The translations under genes were made by a program, and so were the position numbers. The notes beneath the pieces were generated by a model. That model was given only the letters and a program-made list of their open reading frames with translations. It did not search any database and had not been told where the DNA came from. A stretch of 32,768 bases of DNA. Origin: Pelotomaculum sp. PtaU1.Bin035 (GTDB lineage Bacteria > Bacillota > Desulfotomaculia > Desulfotomaculales > Pelotomaculaceae). Shown here piece by piece: positions 9,135-16,536 of the stretch; positions within the stretch are counted from its first letter, which is position 1; the number at the start of each line of letters is the position of its first letter. The stretch covers positions 1 through 32,768 of the forward strand of contig MVRN01000082.1 in NCBI GenBank assembly GCA_002067965.1. The letters run 5' to 3'.

Positions 9135-9965
9135 ATGCAACAAAATTCAAATTCTACATGTGACAATGAAAAAAACAGCGGATGTGGTCATGAAGGTAAT
9201 ACCGGCATTGAGAAATTGACCGGAAACGAATTTAGCAATATCAGGATTGTTATTGCTGTCATGAGTGGAAAAGGCGGTGTGGGGAAATCTTCAATAACAT
9301 CTATACTTGCTTGTGAATATAGAAAAAAAGGCTATTTAGTGGGAGTGCTGGACGCGGACATAACCGGCCCGAGCCTGCCAAAGATGTTTGGTATAAAGAG
9401 TGGGGTGAAAAGCAACGGCTCTGCGTTGTTGCCTTCAATTAGCGATAATGGGATAAGAGTTATGTCTCTAAACTTGTTGACCAGCAATGAAGATGACCCG
9501 GTTATCTGGCGCGGGCCGGTTATTTCCGGTACAGTCAAGCAGTTTTGGACTGATGTGGCCTGGGGTGACCTAGATTACCTTTTTGTTGATTTGCCGCCCG
9601 GCACTGGTGACGTTCCTTTGACTGTAATGCAATCCCTGCCTCTCAACGGGCTAATCGTTGTATCTTCACCGCAAGATCTTGCCGTTATGATTGTAAGCAA
9701 GGCAATAAAGATGGCCCAATATATGAATATTCCCATACTTGGTCTGGTTGAAAATATGAGTGGCGCTGTTTGCCCGCATTGTGGCGAGGCATTTCAATTG
9801 TTTGGACCTAGCCGGGGTGAAGAAATTGCCCGGAAATTTCAGATCCCGTATATTGGCGGCTTGCCGGTAGACCCCATTTTTTCAAAGCTCTGCGATCAAG
9901 GTAAGATTGAGGAGTATGATAGTAACCTTTTTGCCAATTTTATTCCTAAAAATATGGGAGTTTAA
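9135..9965 (+). CDS. Mrp/NBP35-family iron-sulfur cluster carrier ATPase
   Basis: This 276-residue ATPase of the Mrp/ApbC/NBP35 family is a dimeric cytoplasmic carrier of [4Fe-4S] clusters. The deviant Walker A is SGKGGVGKSS at residues 44-53, followed by LDADITGPSLPKMFG. The family's bridging-cluster motif CPHC is at C213/C216. The short N-terminal extension has two cysteines, C9 and C17 (GCGHEG), which recalls the N-terminal Fe-S site of NBP35 but with fewer ligands. A GGAGG lies about 10 nt before the ATG. The stop codon directly abuts the start of the ferredoxin gene, so the two are translationally coupled; the ferredoxin may supply electrons or be a client. Confidence 0.92.
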   Translation: MQQNSNSTCDNEKNSGCGHEGNTGIEKLTGNEFSNIRIVIAVMSGKGGVGKSSITSILACEYRKKGYLVGVLDADITGPSLPKMFGIKSGVKSNGSALLPSISDNGIRVMSLNLLTSNEDDPVIWRGPVISGTVKQFWTDVAWGDLDYLFVDLPPGTGDVPLTVMQSLPLNGLIVVSSPQDLAVMIVSKAIKMAQYMNIPILGLVENMSGAVCPHCGEAFQLFGPSRGEEIARKFQIPYIGGLPVDPIFSKLCDQGKIEEYDSNLFANFIPKNMGV

Positions 9966-10148
9966 GTGAAACCAATAATAGATAGTGAAACATGCGTAGC
10001 TTGTGCCATGTGTTATGATGTGTGTCCTGCGGATCCAAAGGTATTTGAAATAAGCGATATTGCCAAAGTCGTTCACCCGGAAGCATGTATGGGATGCATG
10101 ACTTGCGAGGAAAATTGCCCTACAGACTCAATAACAATAACTGAATAA
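9966..10148 (+). CDS. 2[4Fe-4S] ferredoxin
   Basis: This 60-residue bacterial-type ferredoxin starts with GTG immediately after the TAA of the Mrp gene. Two complete ligand sets are present: C10/C13/C16/C20 with the following Pro, and C41/C44/C47/C51 with the following Pro, so it should carry two low-potential clusters. The loop between them (about residues 21-40) is slightly longer than in clostridial ferredoxin. It is the last gene of the block and is followed by a terminator at 10210. Confidence 0.93.
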   Translation: MKPIIDSETCVACAMCYDVCPADPKVFEISDIAKVVHPEACMGCMTCEENCPTDSITITE

Positions 10149-10209: not shown

Positions 10210-10236
10210 AGCTGGTTTATCCAGCTATTTTTTTTA
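10210..10236 (+). terminator. Rho-independent terminator of the Fe-S/metal-cofactor block
   Basis: A 6-bp stem AGCTGG/CCAGCT (10210-10215 with 10221-10226) and a TTTAT loop are followed by ATTTTTTTTAT. Confidence 0.75.
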
Positions 10237-10371: not shown

Positions 10372-10421
10372 ATTACATGAGGCTAATAGTAAATAATTAT
10401 TTACTATTAGCCTCATGTAAT
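10372..10421. promoter_or_regulatory. Perfect 50-bp palindrome, probable MarR operator
   Basis: Bases 10372-10396 are the exact reverse complement of 10397-10421, with no spacer. The right arm includes the -35 of the marR promoter at 10400. Inner half-sites such as TAGTAAAT/ATTTACTA have the size and symmetry of MarR-family operators, but the dyad is far longer than the usual 16-20 bp. A T-rich stretch after it could also let it act as a terminator. The rest of the 322-base gap 10149-10470 holds only the upstream terminator, this element and the marR leader. Confidence 0.75.
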
Positions 10422-10428
10422 ATATACT
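10400..10428 (+). promoter_or_regulatory. Promoter of the marR efflux operon
   Basis: TTTACT at 10400-10405, a 17-bp spacer and TATACT at 10423-10428. The -35 lies inside the right arm of the palindrome, so a protein bound there would block RNA polymerase. Confidence 0.6.
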
Positions 10429-10470
10429 ATTTTTATTATTAACCAAATTGTTTATACGGGAGGTGTTAGA

Positions 10471-10908
10471 ATTAACAACCTGGAAAATGTGGCCGGTGAC
10501 TTCCTTGCTGTATTAGCCTTCATGCGCGATAAATTTTTCGCGACGCTTGAACAGATAACGCGCCCCCAAATGAGCCACGTTCAATACCGCGCGGTATCGC
10601 TGTTGTACCGGAAGGGTTCTCTGTCTATGTCGGAACTGGCTAAAGAGATGCATATATCCAAACAGCAGCTTACACCCCTGGTATACAAACTGATTAATAA
10701 TGGTCTTGTAATTAGAAAAACAGATGAAGACGACCGGCGCATTGTGCTAATAGAAATAACTGAAACAGGGAGAAGAAAGGTAGAAGAAATGCTGCCCGAA
10801 ATAAAACTCGTACTCATGGAAAAGCTCGAAACGCTTCCCGTGGCGGAGTTGGACGAACTTATGCAAATGTTGAAAAGGATTCACGAAATCATTAAAAACG
10901 TTGAATAA
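10471..10908 (+). CDS. MarR-family transcriptional regulator, probable ATT start
   Basis: This winged-helix MarR-type regulator has about 145 residues. The DNA-binding core is visible: SMSELAKEMHISKQQLTPLVYKL is split across helix 3 and the recognition helix, then the wing RKTDEDDRR followed by the strand IVLIEITETG. The C-terminus forms a long dimerisation helix. The GTG at 10489 is 25 nt from the nearest Shine-Dalgarno (GGGAGG at 10458-10463), while ATT at 10471 is 7 nt from it and yields the common leader NNLENVAGDFL; I therefore take ATT as the start. The gene heads an efflux operon and likely represses it through the palindrome upstream. Its inducing ligand is unknown. Confidence 0.85.
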   Translation: MNNLENVAGDFLAVLAFMRDKFFATLEQITRPQMSHVQYRAVSLLYRKGSLSMSELAKEMHISKQQLTPLVYKLINNGLVIRKTDEDDRRIVLIEITETGRRKVEEMLPEIKLVLMEKLETLPVAELDELMQMLKRIHEIIKNVE

Positions 10909-10944: not shown

Positions 10945-11646
10945 ATGAAGAAAATAAAAAAGGTATTGCTGATCCTGGCGGTGCTGATCCTTGCCGGTGG
11001 GGCGGCCGGGCTCTCCTACTATATTTACGAGAGTGTCAACTGCTTCTCTACGGAAAACGCCCAGATAACCTCCGATATGATTACCCTGACGCCGGAGGTT
11101 ACCGGCAAAGTGAAAAGCTGGGACGTCAGGGAAGGGGATTATGTAAAAGCGGGACAGGTGCTTGGCAAACAGGATGTCAGTGCGCTTGTGACCAATACCG
11201 CGATGAATCCACAAACGCTGGCCTATTCAGCGGATACCATTATCTCAAAAGCGGATATCAAATCTCCGATTGACGGCAAGGTGGTGCAGTCGAATGTGAT
11301 CAAAGGCCAGGTTGTGTCGCCCGGCATGGAGATTGCGGCGATTGCCGATACTTCACACATCTACATCAAGGCCAATATTGAAGAAACGGATATTATTAAG
11401 ATCAAACCAGGTCAAAAAGTAGAGATCAAGATCGACGCCTACCCCCGTCAAACCTTTTACGGCTACGTTGAGAGCATAGGCCAGGCTACGCAGTCGGCGT
11501 TCAGTCAGTTCCCGTCACTTAATACAAGCGGGACTTTCTCAAAAGTGACCCAGTTGATCCCGGTGAAGATTGCCATAACGAACGTTGATAACCTTACACT
11601 CATGCTAGGGATGAATGCCACAGTGAAAATCCAGATCAAACAGTGA
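10945..11646 (+). CDS. HlyD/EmrA-like membrane-fusion (efflux adaptor) protein, compact form
   Basis: This 233-residue protein has an N-terminal anchor (about residues 7-27) after a lysine-rich start, then a split biotinyl-lipoyl domain (TPEVTGKVKSWDVREGDYV near 50-68 and KSPIDGKVVQSNVIKGQ near 108-124) and a beta-barrel. The long alpha-hairpin that normally separates the lipoyl halves is nearly absent, so it is a short adaptor. ATG 10945 is preceded by AGGTGG at a spacing of 8; an upstream in-frame extension to 10927 lacks a better signal. It follows marR by 36 nt and precedes a second adaptor by 14 nt. It should link an exporter to the cell envelope; the substrate is unknown. Confidence 0.85.
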   Translation: MKKIKKVLLILAVLILAGGAAGLSYYIYESVNCFSTENAQITSDMITLTPEVTGKVKSWDVREGDYVKAGQVLGKQDVSALVTNTAMNPQTLAYSADTIISKADIKSPIDGKVVQSNVIKGQVVSPGMEIAAIADTSHIYIKANIEETDIIKIKPGQKVEIKIDAYPRQTFYGYVESIGQATQSAFSQFPSLNTSGTFSKVTQLIPVKIAITNVDNLTLMLGMNATVKIQIKQ

Positions 11647-11660
11647 AAGGATGTTAAGGT

Positions 11661-12806
11661 ATGCTAAGACGGATAAAAAGGCCCCTGGCCATTGTCGCGG
11701 CTCTGATACTGGCGTTTGCCGCCTACGGCTGTGCCGGACGGAATGCGGACAAGGCAGTGTCGGTGATGACGGCGGCAGCTGATAATCAGGAATTGGAAAC
11801 AACGCTGGAACTGAGCGGCGTCCTGGTGCAGGCGCAGAAGGTTGACATATCCAGTAAAATTTCGGGGAAGGTAATCAGCCTGGGTTACAACACCGGCAGC
11901 GCCGTCAAGGCGGGGGACGTCCTAATTCAGTTGGATACGGAAGTATTGAGCGCCCAGCTTATGCAGGCCCAGGCCGGACTGCAATCTGCGGAAGCTGCCG
12001 CGGATGCTGCGCGGAATCAGGCTTCTATAACAAAAATAAACCTGGACGCGGCCCAAAAACTATATGACAGGACCAAGGCTCTTAATGAATCGGGCGCAGT
12101 ATCTCAAAGCCAGATGGACGAGGTTGCAGATAAGCTTAATACGGCGGAAAAACAGTTTGAGAATGCTGCCGGACCCGCTCAGGACCAGGCGCAGGCCGCG
12201 GTCAACACAGCCCGCGCCAATATAAAAAATCTCCAGGCGCAAATTGATAATGCTACCATCAGAAGTCCCATTGACGGATTATTGGTTGGCCAGAATGTCA
12301 ACGTTGGAGAAGTGCTCTCGCCGGGCGTGGCGGTAATATCAATCGTGGACACTTCAACCCTTAAACTGAAAAGCACTGTAACCCAGGATTTATTGCCGCT
12401 TTTATCAGCCGGACAGGAAATGGACATAACAGTTGACATCTACCCGGACAGTAAATTTATTGGGACTGTTTCCAGCGTCGGGCCTATCGCGGTGAACACG
12501 GGTGAACTATTCCCAGTGGAAATCGCCATTAACAACAACGGAAGCCTGACGGCAGGGTTGACTGCCCATGCCTCGGTGACCGCTAAAACACAAGGAATTG
12601 TGGTCCCATCGTCGTCTGTGATCCAAAACGGCGGGGAAAGCTATATATTTGTAATCAAGGACAATATCGCTTCGAAACGTGTTGTTAAAATAGGGCTTAA
12701 AAATGATAAAGGCACCCAGATTTTGAAAGGGCTTAACGCAGGTGAACTGGTTGCCGTTACCAATGCCGGCAGTCTTACCGACAGTATGCCGGTAATAACC
12801 AATTAA
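11661..12806 (+). CDS. RND/MacA-type efflux adaptor lipoprotein
   Basis: This 381-residue protein begins with a lipoprotein signal peptide: basic MLRRIKRP, a hydrophobic core and the lipobox AAYGC with Cys at residue 24. After that come a lipoyl half (SGKVISLGYNTGSAVKAGD), a full alpha-helical hairpin rich in Ala/Gln (about residues 95-195), the second lipoyl half (IRSPIDGLLVGQNVNVGE), a beta-barrel and a membrane-proximal domain (VVPSSSVIQNGGESYIFV). It is thus a complete adaptor, unlike the compact one just upstream. It lies in the marR operon, followed 39 nt later by the ABC exporter genes. In MacA/YknX systems such proteins assist an ABC exporter. Confidence 0.88.
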   Translation: MLRRIKRPLAIVAALILAFAAYGCAGRNADKAVSVMTAAADNQELETTLELSGVLVQAQKVDISSKISGKVISLGYNTGSAVKAGDVLIQLDTEVLSAQLMQAQAGLQSAEAAADAARNQASITKINLDAAQKLYDRTKALNESGAVSQSQMDEVADKLNTAEKQFENAAGPAQDQAQAAVNTARANIKNLQAQIDNATIRSPIDGLLVGQNVNVGEVLSPGVAVISIVDTSTLKLKSTVTQDLLPLLSAGQEMDITVDIYPDSKFIGTVSSVGPIAVNTGELFPVEIAINNNGSLTAGLTAHASVTAKTQGIVVPSSSVIQNGGESYIFVIKDNIASKRVVKIGLKNDKGTQILKGLNAGELVAVTNAGSLTDSMPVITN

Positions 12807-12845: not shown

Positions 12846-14573
12846 ATGTATAGATTATTCCGATTCTTCAGGCCATACACCCTGAATTTATCCTGGGTAA
12901 TAGTGTTTCTTTTCGCTCAATCTATTGCGGAACTGTATCTCCCGACGCTCATGGCGGACGTGGTTAATAACGGCATGATGAAGGGCGATACCGGCTACAT
13001 TTGGAAATACGGGAGTTACATGCTGTTGGTGGCGCTGGGGAGCAGCTTTTGCTCCATAGTGGGCAGTTACCTGTCTTCAATAGTCGGGATGGGCTTCGGC
13101 AAGGACGTCCGCGACAAGGTTTTTTCGCGGGTGGAGAGCTATTCCCTGCAGGAGTTCGATAAAATCGGGACCGCTTCCCTTATTACCAGGACCACCAACG
13201 ATATTACCCAGGTGCAGACCCTTGTTGTAATGGGTCTGCGCTTTATGGTCTACGCTCCGATCATGTGCGTCGGGGGTATCATCATGGCCTTTTCCAAGGA
13301 TAAGCGGCTTACTCTGATCCTGGCTGTGGTCCTGCCTGTTATGCTGATCCTGATCGGGAGCCTCGCCGGCGTGATCGTGCCCCTGTTCAAAGCAATGCAA
13401 GTCAAGCTCGACAAGGTAAACCTGGTTCTACGCGAGAATCTGACCGGGATCAGGGTGATCAGGGCTTTTAACAGACTTAGGAGCGAGAATGAACGTTTTA
13501 GGAAAGCAAACCGCGATCTGACCGATAACTCAATTAAAGTCAATAAAATAATGGCTTCGATCCAGCCGGCCATGATCATCATTATGAATTTAACCTCTAT
13601 TTCAATCATATGGTTCGGCGGCCACCGCATCAGTCAGAACGTAATGCAGGTGGGCGACATGATGGCGTTTCTCCAATACGCCATGCAGGTCATGTTTTCA
13701 ATCATCATGGTGACTATAATGTTTGTCATGGTCCCGAGAGCCCAGGCATCCGCCACCCGGATTAATGAAGTGCTGGATGTGGAACCCGTGATCTGCGACC
13801 CGCCGCGAGGAAGAGAATCCGGCGGCCGGGTAGGTCATGTGGAATTCCGGGACGTTACTTTCAGCTATCCCGGAGCCGAACTGCCGGCTGTCAGGAATAT
13901 ATCTTTCGCAGCCCATCCAGGCGAGGTGACTGCTATTATAGGTGGTACGGGTTCGGGTAAATCCACCCTGATCAACCTGATCCCGCGGTTTTACGATGTT
14001 GAAAGCGGCTGTGTCCTGGTTGACGGAGTGGATGTCCGGCAGATGGCTCAGAAAGAACTCAGGGCGAAGATCGGTTTTGTGCCCCAGACCCCAATCCTTT
14101 TCAGCGGGACGGTTGCGGAAAATATACGGTATGGTAAGGATGACGCGACCGATGAAGAGATATCTCACGCGGCGGAGATTGCTCAGGCGAGTGAATTCAT
14201 TGCCGCGATGAAAAATGGATATGAATCTCTGATTTCCCAGGGAGGCACTAACCTTTCCGGTGGACAGAAACAAAGACTTTCCATTGCCCGTGCTCTGGTC
14301 AGGAGACCCGGGATTTATATTCTGGACGACAGTTTTTCAGCCCTTGACTTTAAGACTGACGCCCGGTTGCGGGCGGCGCTTAAGAAAGAGACCACTGCTT
14401 CCACCTTGATCATTGTGGCTCAGAGGGTGGGAACGGTTATGGACGCTGACAGGATTATCGTTCTGGATGAGGGGCGGATTGTTGGCATCGGCAAGCATAA
14501 AGAACTTATGGGTACTTGTGTGGTATACCGTGAGATTGTATCCTCCCAATTGTCGGAAGAGGAGATTGCGTGA
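12846..14573 (+). CDS. ABC multidrug exporter half-transporter with degenerate ATPase site
   Basis: This 575-residue protein has six transmembrane helices (about residues 15-305) fused to an ATP-binding domain. The Walker A is GGTGSGKST near 366-374 and the signature motif is canonical LSGGQ near 470. However, the Walker B run ends ILDDS, with Asp where the catalytic Glu is expected, and the switch loop reads VAQRVG with Gln instead of His. These two changes together mark the degenerate partner of heterodimeric exporters such as TM287/288, LmrCD and BmrCD. The next gene supplies the partner and starts 4 nt downstream. Located in the membrane, it probably exports drugs or lipid-like compounds under MarR control. 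Confidence 0.93.
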   Translation: MYRLFRFFRPYTLNLSWVIVFLFAQSIAELYLPTLMADVVNNGMMKGDTGYIWKYGSYMLLVALGSSFCSIVGSYLSSIVGMGFGKDVRDKVFSRVESYSLQEFDKIGTASLITRTTNDITQVQTLVVMGLRFMVYAPIMCVGGIIMAFSKDKRLTLILAVVLPVMLILIGSLAGVIVPLFKAMQVKLDKVNLVLRENLTGIRVIRAFNRLRSENERFRKANRDLTDNSIKVNKIMASIQPAMIIIMNLTSISIIWFGGHRISQNVMQVGDMMAFLQYAMQVMFSIIMVTIMFVMVPRAQASATRINEVLDVEPVICDPPRGRESGGRVGHVEFRDVTFSYPGAELPAVRNISFAAHPGEVTAIIGGTGSGKSTLINLIPRFYDVESGCVLVDGVDVRQMAQKELRAKIGFVPQTPILFSGTVAENIRYGKDDATDEEISHAAEIAQASEFIAAMKNGYESLISQGGTNLSGGQKQRLSIARALVRRPGIYILDDSFSALDFKTDARLRAALKKETTASTLIIVAQRVGTVMDADRIIVLDEGRIVGIGKHKELMGTCVVYREIVSSQLSEEEIA

Positions 14574-14577
14574 CAAT

Positions 14578-16536
14578 ATGAGTAGTCGAAATTCTCAAAG
14601 GCCCGCCGGCCCGGCGCGCAGGGGCCCCATGGGTCCTGGCCATATGATGGGGCCGCCTGTTGAAAAAGCAAAAGATTTTCGGGGGACTCTGGCTAGGCTG
14701 ACCGTGTATCTGAGGCCGGAGAGACACCGTTTCATCGTGGTATTTTTCTTGGCTGTTGCCAGTACGATTTTCTCGATTATCGGCCCCAAAATCATGGGGA
14801 AAGCAACGACCAAGCTGGCTGAAGGGGTCCTGGCCAAATATGCCTATTATATGCAGCTTGCAACGGCGATCCAGGAAAAAATGCCGGCTGCAGTTATTGA
14901 CAAACTGGAGAAACAGCCGGTTCCGGGCTTTGATTTTGGCTATATCGGGAAAATTCTACTATTGCTGGTTGTATTTTATCTGATCAGTGCTCTATGCAGC
15001 TATGCGATGGGATACATCATGTCCGGCGTGTCCCAGAACACTGTTTACAGGATGCGTAACGACGTTAAGGACAAACTTGACCGCCTGCCGCTTAAATATT
15101 TTGACCAGCGCACATATGGCGAGATTCTGAGCAGGGTCACGAATGACATGGACAATATTGCCACAACGCTACAGCAGAGTATGATCCAACTGATCACGTC
15201 TTTAGTGACTGTGATAGGGATATTAATCATGATGCTGAGCATCAGCCCTGTTATGACTCTAATCGCGTTGGTGACGCTTCCTGCCAGTATGCTTATCACT
15301 TTGTTGATCACTAAAAATTCTCAGAATTTTTTTGCCGGCCAGCAGAAATGCATCGGGGAATTAAACGGTCATGTTGAGGAAATGTACTCGGGGCATAAAA
15401 TCGTTAAAGTGTTTGGACATGAGGAAGATTCAATAGCGAAATTCAAGGGAATTAACGCCAGATTGTACGGAGTCGGCTGGAAAGCGCAGTTTATATCCGG
15501 CATTATCTTCCCGGCCTTAAACTTTGTCAATAACATAGGGTATGTGTTTATCTGCGTCGTTGGAGGCTTGCTGGTGGCTCATAAAAAAATCGAGGTGGGT
15601 GATATACAGGCGTTCATCCAATATACGAGGCAGTTCACCCAGCCGATCATCCAGGTTGCCAATATAGCCAACGTGTTGCAGTCCACAGTAGCCTCCGCGG
15701 AACGGGTTTTTGAGATCCTGGATGAGGAAGAGCAAATCCCCGATCGGGAAGACGCCAAGGTGATCATGTTCCCGGAAGGCAGGGTCAAATTTGAACATGT
15801 GAAATTTGGCTACAAGGAAGAAGCCCCGCTAATGGAAGACCTGAGCATAGATGTTAAGGAAGGAAACACCGTCGCCATCGTCGGGCCGACGGGAGCGGGC
15901 AAAACAACTCTGGTTAATCTGATTATGCGCTTTTATGAGGTCCAAGGTGGCCGGATCACTGTCGACGGCGTGGATATCAAGGACATGAAGCGGGGGGATC
16001 TGCGCGCGATGTTCGGCATGGTGCTGCAAGATACCTGGTTGTTTAACGGAACCATATGGGACAATATAGCTTATGGACGTGAGGGAGCCACGGAGGAAGA
16101 AATCATCAACGCGGCCAAAGCCGCCAATGCCGATCACTTCATCAAGACCCTCCCGGACGGCTATGGCACCATCTTAAACGAGGAGGCCTCCAATATTTCG
16201 CAAGGCCAGAAACAGCTTCTGACAATCGCCCGCGCGATTTTAGCCGACCCGGCCATCCTCATCCTCGATGAAGCCACCAGCAACATCGATACGAGGACCG
16301 AGGTGCTGGTCCAGAAGGCGATGGCAAACCTAATGAAGGGAAAAACCAGTTTTGTGATCGCGCACAGGCTTTCAACTATCCGTGACGCTGACCTGATCCT
16401 GGTGATGAACAACGGGGCCATCATCGAGCAGGGCAGTCACACCGAACTACTGGCCAGGGGCGGCTTCTACGCTGGACTGTATAACAGCCAGTTTACGGGC
16501 GGCAACCTTGGTGACAAGGCTTACCCGGACGGCTAA
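14578..16536 (+). CDS. ABC multidrug exporter half-transporter, catalytic partner
   Basis: This 652-residue ABC half-transporter has a Gly/Pro/Met-rich cytoplasmic N-tail (GPMGPGHMMGPP near residues 18-29), six transmembrane helices and an ATP-binding domain. Walker A GPTGAGKTT (about 436-444), Walker B ILILDEATS with catalytic Glu, and the H-loop IAHRLSTI are canonical, while the signature reads ISQGQ instead of LSGGQ. That is the exact complement of the preceding protein: combined, they give one working and one degenerate nucleotide site. A longer frame back to 14413 overlaps the previous gene; the ATG at 14578 with GAGGAG 14 nt upstream fits better. The extra loop after TM1 (about residues 75-115) is typical of the YheH/BmrD side. 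It ends 5 nt before the convergent ligase gene with no terminator visible. Confidence 0.93.
   Translation: MSSRNSQRPAGPARRGPMGPGHMMGPPVEKAKDFRGTLARLTVYLRPERHRFIVVFFLAVASTIFSIIGPKIMGKATTKLAEGVLAKYAYYMQLATAIQEKMPAAVIDKLEKQPVPGFDFGYIGKILLLLVVFYLISALCSYAMGYIMSGVSQNTVYRMRNDVKDKLDRLPLKYFDQRTYGEILSRVTNDMDNIATTLQQSMIQLITSLVTVIGILIMMLSISPVMTLIALVTLPASMLITLLITKNSQNFFAGQQKCIGELNGHVEEMYSGHKIVKVFGHEEDSIAKFKGINARLYGVGWKAQFISGIIFPALNFVNNIGYVFICVVGGLLVAHKKIEVGDIQAFIQYTRQFTQPIIQVANIANVLQSTVASAERVFEILDEEEQIPDREDAKVIMFPEGRVKFEHVKFGYKEEAPLMEDLSIDVKEGNTVAIVGPTGAGKTTLVNLIMRFYEVQGGRITVDGVDIKDMKRGDLRAMFGMVLQDTWLFNGTIWDNIAYGREGATEEEIINAAKAANADHFIKTLPDGYGTILNEEASNISQGQKQLLTIARAILADPAILILDEATSNIDTRTEVLVQKAMANLMKGKTSFVIAHRLSTIRDADLILVMNNGAIIEQGSHTELLARGGFYAGLYNSQFTGGNLGDKAYPDG

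Follow-up and report, generated by a model that had tools for sequence, protein, structure and literature searches.

The window, by which we mean the whole stretch of 32,768 nucleotides analysed here, contains a perfect 50-bp palindrome at positions 10372-10421, upstream of a marR repressor gene. Its 25-bp arms are 100% complementary and meet with a spacer of 0 (ATTACATGAGGCTAATAGTAAATAA followed by TTATTTACTATTAGCCTCATGTAAT), exactly as an earlier note on this DNA had described it. To the left of the palindrome lie the gene for an Mrp-type iron-sulfur carrier ATPase and a small ferredoxin-like ORF, separated from it by a terminator-like hairpin. To the right, marR is followed by genes for two membrane-fusion proteins (MFPs) and two ABC exporter halves, and judged by sequence this operon is of the efflux type (drug-export type). 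MarR-family PDB structures matched the profile of the repressor with a best E value of 8.7e-18. Among orthologous loci on sufficiently long contigs the order MarR-(MFP-MFP)-ABC-ABC was kept, some of them being without MFPs. Operons that had neither MFP gene and kept MarR-ABC-ABC were seen at L045, L046, L048, L051, L041, L054 and L055. The features of the locus are as follows.

9135-9965: Mrp-type iron-sulfur carrier ATPase gene, left of the palindrome
9966-10148: small ferredoxin-like ORF, left of the palindrome, ending before the terminator-like hairpin
10210-10226, plus strand: intrinsic-terminator-like hairpin of the upstream genes, between them and the palindrome (promoter/terminator inspection)
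10372-10421, no strand: perfect 50-bp palindrome, 25-bp arms, no spacer (sequence and chance expectation)
10372-10383, no strand: outer left arm, ATTACATGAGGC, found in this genome only (offsets 14-25, no conservation that the window shares)
10384-10409, no strand: conserved core, the putative operator, TAATAGTAAATAATTATTTACTATTA, 13-bp arms (position and sequence kept in 21 orthologs; conservation stops at about offset 13)
10387-10406, no strand: inverted half-sites TAGTAAA-N6-TTTACTA, predicted MarR dimer site (half-sites near-invariant in orthologs)
10400-10405, plus strand: predicted -35 element TTTACT, within the right half-site and right arm (promoter prediction, ortholog comparison)
10410-10421, no strand: outer right arm GCCTCATGTAAT, in the -35/-10 spacer (offsets 14-25, no conservation that the window shares)
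10423-10428, plus strand: predicted -10 element TATACT, just outside the right arm (promoter prediction, ortholog comparison)
10458-10465, plus strand: Shine-Dalgarno sequence GGGAGGTG of marR (sequence; conserved in orthologs)
10471-10908, plus strand: marR repressor gene, proposed start ATT (AUU) at 10471-10473 (Pfam MarR, 1.5e-14; frame and start conserved)
10945-11646, plus strand: membrane-fusion protein 1 (HlyD_D23), operon member
11661-12806, plus strand: membrane-fusion protein 2 (RND_mfp-type adaptor), operon member
12846-14573, plus strand: ABC exporter half 1 (MsbA/SmdA type), operon member
14575-16536, plus strand: ABC exporter half 2 (MsbA/SmdB type), operon member

The palindrome is real and clearly non-random. 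Base composition predicts about 3e-11 such palindrome centres per window and about 2.5e-9 per 2.54-Mb genome. In the 787 kb sampled of this genome it was by far the longest zero-spacer perfect palindrome, the runners-up having arms of 14, 10 and 9 bp. A search for further copies across the genome, which the earlier note had proposed, returned none, and the palindrome is single-copy.

The conserved core and the marR promoter

We compared the region with the upstream regions of 21 orthologous marR genes (40-72% protein identity) from Pelotomaculum, Desulfotomaculaceae, Syntrophomonas and relatives, the sources including Pelotomaculum propionicicum, P. terephthalicicum, several Desulfotomaculaceae and Syntrophomonas MAGs. 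These regions were aligned by anchoring on the half-sites. The sole conserved element upstream of the 21 genes was the central 26 bp of the palindrome (TAATAGTAAATAA followed by TTATTTACTATTA), which appeared in the anchored alignment as TAATAGTAAATA..TATTTACTATTA. It was found upstream of marR in 21 of 21 orthologs, where 65-80 bp separate its centre from the start region. At offsets 3-10, counted from the centre, most positions of either half showed no or almost no variation; information content reached background at offset 14 towards the right and at offset 15 towards the left, and conservation ended sharply at +/-13 bp from the palindrome centre. The core is old.

The predicted marR promoter, TTTACT-17-TATACT, is the only one seen for marR and the efflux-type operon, and its -35 element sits in the right arm where the earlier note had placed it. 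In nearly all orthologs the -35 likewise falls in the right half-site and is followed by a 17-bp spacer to TATACT or TATAAT. Because the motif is conserved, holds a fixed place over the -35 and recurs among the orthologs, we read the core as the autoregulatory operator of this MarR lineage. The central 26 bp would thus very probably be bound by the adjacent MarR, which bears out the earlier proposal of a MarR operator over the -35. The conservation of site, position and operon is established, and we infer binding and induction from the MarR family. A MarR dimer would bind TAGTAAA-N6-TTTACTA and mask the -35 of the marR/efflux-type operon promoter, and a ligand would free MarR from the operator and so induce the pump. 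This arrangement shares with the autoregulatory operators of MarR, MepR, TcaR and SlyA/EmrR-type systems a winged-helix MarR protein, an inverted repeat over the -35 and a repressor gene that comes first in an efflux-type operon. It differs from them in that perfect symmetry here runs 12 bp per side past the conserved site. Literature searches found no description of TAGTAAA-N6-TTTACTA for this group.

Within the genome itself, the sole exact occurrence of TAGTAAA-N6-TTTACTA was the marR site. A search for a wider operator regulon gave 19 places with <=2 mismatches, and the reversed control gave 28; looser matches were no commoner than in the control, and the marR site alone stood out. One of the looser matches, the site G000:C36:12210 with a single mismatch, lay upstream of a gene. 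Beyond the orthologs, the motif with 0-3 mismatches was present upstream of most, but not all, of 19 distant MarR homologues, those that carry it (at ~30% identity) including proteins of Paenibacillus, Cohnella, Anoxybacillus, Clostridium puniceum and others. In C. puniceum (L072, 7829-7884) a tandem pair of perfect palindromes, each with TAGTAAATAATTATTTACTA, lies upstream of the distant marR homologue. In Syntrophomonas-type relatives (L049, L050, L052, L053 and L054) the core is preceded, at a distance of about 17 bp, by one more (TA)GTAAAC-like half-site in direct orientation, which suggests a second weak site there.

The outer arms of the palindrome

The earlier note had considered the palindrome as an operator, perhaps for two MarR dimers, and on that view the whole 50 bp would be a sequence-specific site. 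The outer arms, unlike the core, are not conserved. A comparison of the outer 12 bp with the 21 orthologs gave no match, and on each side just 3 of the 12 outer bases of the window coincided with the ortholog consensus. Symmetry past the 13-bp arm amounted to 12 bp in the window, 8 bp in Desulfotomaculaceae STF2_125 (L046) and 0-2 bp in the other 20 orthologs, and when left and right flanks of different genomes were paired the extension was <=4 in 462 combinations. The extension of L046 (AACGCCC/GGGCGTT) matches to 21 bp with a mismatch at 22, and its outer sequences differ wholly from those of the window, with nothing common to both. Since the two genomes are not sisters in the tree of the linked ABC protein and MarR, their extensions are most simply independent. 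No TAGTAAA or TTTACTA occurs outside the core within 10372-10421. Doubled MarR operators do exist, as in the two adjacent perfect core palindromes of C. puniceum, and the Syntrophomonas relatives carry their additional TAGTAAA half-site. In the window, however, the outer sequence is unconserved and differs from that of L046, so a second specific protein site does not account for the length, and we regard the two-dimer operator as quite unlikely. The conserved site being only 26 bp, the earlier remark that the palindrome is much longer than a MarR operator needs was correct. That note had also taken unrelated sequence in related strains, with unchanged regulation, as evidence against an operator; unrelated sequence was found at the outer arms and not at the core.

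Template switching that perfects quasipalindromes is a well-established type of mutation in E. coli (PMC7202029). The outcome there, in lacZ reporters and at a thyA hotspot, is that a shorter or imperfect palindrome is made longer and perfect, and in both cases the new part is without sequence conservation; the difference is that the present case is drawn from a between-species comparison at an operator, with no event observed. Replicative template switching should leave, at inverted repeats that already exist, long extensions that are confined to a lineage and unrelated in sequence, and the outer arms fit this prediction: they are more perfect than in relatives and their new symmetry comes without sequence conservation. 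We therefore attribute the outer 12 bp per side, with moderate confidence, to template-switch extension of a quasipalindrome. At the operator, which is by nature a quasipalindrome, DNA polymerase would change templates and copy one flank into the other, lengthening the arms from roughly 13 bp to 25 bp. The arm was slightly closer to the right (promoter-side) than to the left flanks of the orthologs, at p 0.09 for the window and 0.05 for L046, neither of which is decisive. Around the position of the outer right arm the 17-bp spacer length was kept in most orthologs, and because the right flank lies within this spacer of conserved length, the extension could persist and be tolerated with the regulated promoter unchanged. 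Jointly with the operator core and the template-switch reading, we consider it likely that the outer 12 bp per side lie outside the recognition site and that the palindrome is two overlaid things, a conserved 26-bp MarR operator core and a 12-bp outer extension per side. The very recent origin suggested in the earlier note is plausible for the outer arms and not for the core.

The long symmetry might instead have been selected as structure, a cruciform or DNA hairpin that modulates the promoter whatever the outer sequence. Such a role would agree with two genomes having extended independently with different sequences, and with the fold itself: the centre is AT-rich and a single strand of the palindrome is predicted to form a perfect hairpin (-21.6 kcal/mol, z = -12). 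The genome also gave no SbcD match over the curated cut-off, only one weak SbcD-like match below it. Against this, 20 of the 22 loci with the same operon manage without long symmetry, and the mutational mechanism gives the same pattern without selection, which makes selection for structure unlikely. The instability stressed in the earlier note was overstated: the severe cases documented in E. coli concern palindromes that are hundreds of bp long (246 and 460 bp), while the in-vitro lower limit of SbcCD hairpin cleavage is given as palindromes of 20-36 bp (PMC4245961). A 50-bp palindrome need not imply strong maintaining selection.

An action as RNA, whether as hairpin, terminator or attenuator, could draw on the RNA hairpin, which is predicted to be strong (-36 kcal/mol, z = -6.4), and on the short T run that follows the palindrome when it is read on the minus strand. 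The palindrome nevertheless precedes the -10 of the single marR promoter that was found, which puts it upstream of the inferred transcription start, and the terminator-like hairpin at 10210-10226 precedes it. No minus-strand gene is directed through it, and an Rfam search returned rRNA matches only and none at the palindrome. The RNA hairpin that the earlier note had entertained is for these reasons unlikely. The genome assembly is in 128 contigs, which might raise the question of an artefact, but the palindrome abuts a conserved promoter at the exact spacing, its core is common to independent assemblies, and a chimera formed during amplification would as a rule carry an inversion much longer than 12 bp. 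Together with the expectation per genome given above, this leaves chance or misassembly as a very improbable source.

The template-switch reading, with the ortholog comparison behind it, tells the functional part of a striking palindrome (26 bp) apart from a probable mutational by-product (24 bp). It cautions that palindrome length is not the same as binding-site size, and, as an example obtained by comparing genomes, it illustrates the extension of a quasipalindrome at a transcription-factor site.

The start codon of marR

The Shine-Dalgarno sequence of marR points to ATT at 10471-10473, not to the GTG at 10489 (codon 6 after the ATT), and the repressor apparently starts at AUU. An ATT, ATA or ATC at this codon after a GGAGGTG-type Shine-Dalgarno sequence was found in the window and in 13 orthologs of the clade (L036, L037, L038, L039, L040, L042, L043, L013, L044, L045, L046, L047 and L048), which makes this MarR repressor a candidate, across the clade, for initiation at a non-canonical codon. 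The homologous codon is ATG in six outgroup loci (within L049-L055) and in a long-branch ingroup member (L051). In P. terephthalicicum (L041) the leader is shortened and no ATN stands at the start position; a TTG three codons on is probably used as the start. On the tree the ancestral codon is reconstructed as ATG; 7 or more changes are required if every start codon is counted separately, and 3 or more if ATT, ATA and ATC are treated as one state. Alternative downstream starts differ in place and codon, the first one lying 14 codons in for L043 and L013.

Initiation at an isoleucine codon is of a known kind, and the marR case is new as far as literature searches show. The conserved AUU/AUA starts of infC, ccpN and cvfC1 (PMC13009471) resemble it in that the isoleucine codon follows an extended GGAGGTG-type Shine-Dalgarno sequence, and ccpN encodes, like marR, a transcriptional repressor, CcpN, whose conserved AUA start was demonstrated in S. 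aureus (PMC13009471). The present case differs from these in its gene and its clade, and in that the third base of the marR codon varies among T, A and C while the outgroups keep ATG. Combining start codon and operator, it is possible, and we propose it only tentatively, that operators act as hotspots where template switches recur, their outer symmetry being gained again and again and tolerated because it falls in the promoter spacer, and that at this locus marR translation is throttled by its conserved AUU/AUA/AUC start, so that autorepression and an IF3-sensitive start would both limit the one efflux regulator. In the infC gene of the same genome (L145, about 1460-1520) an ATC is in frame and a nearby ATG is out of frame; this infC, too, seems to begin with an isoleucine codon, as is known for infC elsewhere.
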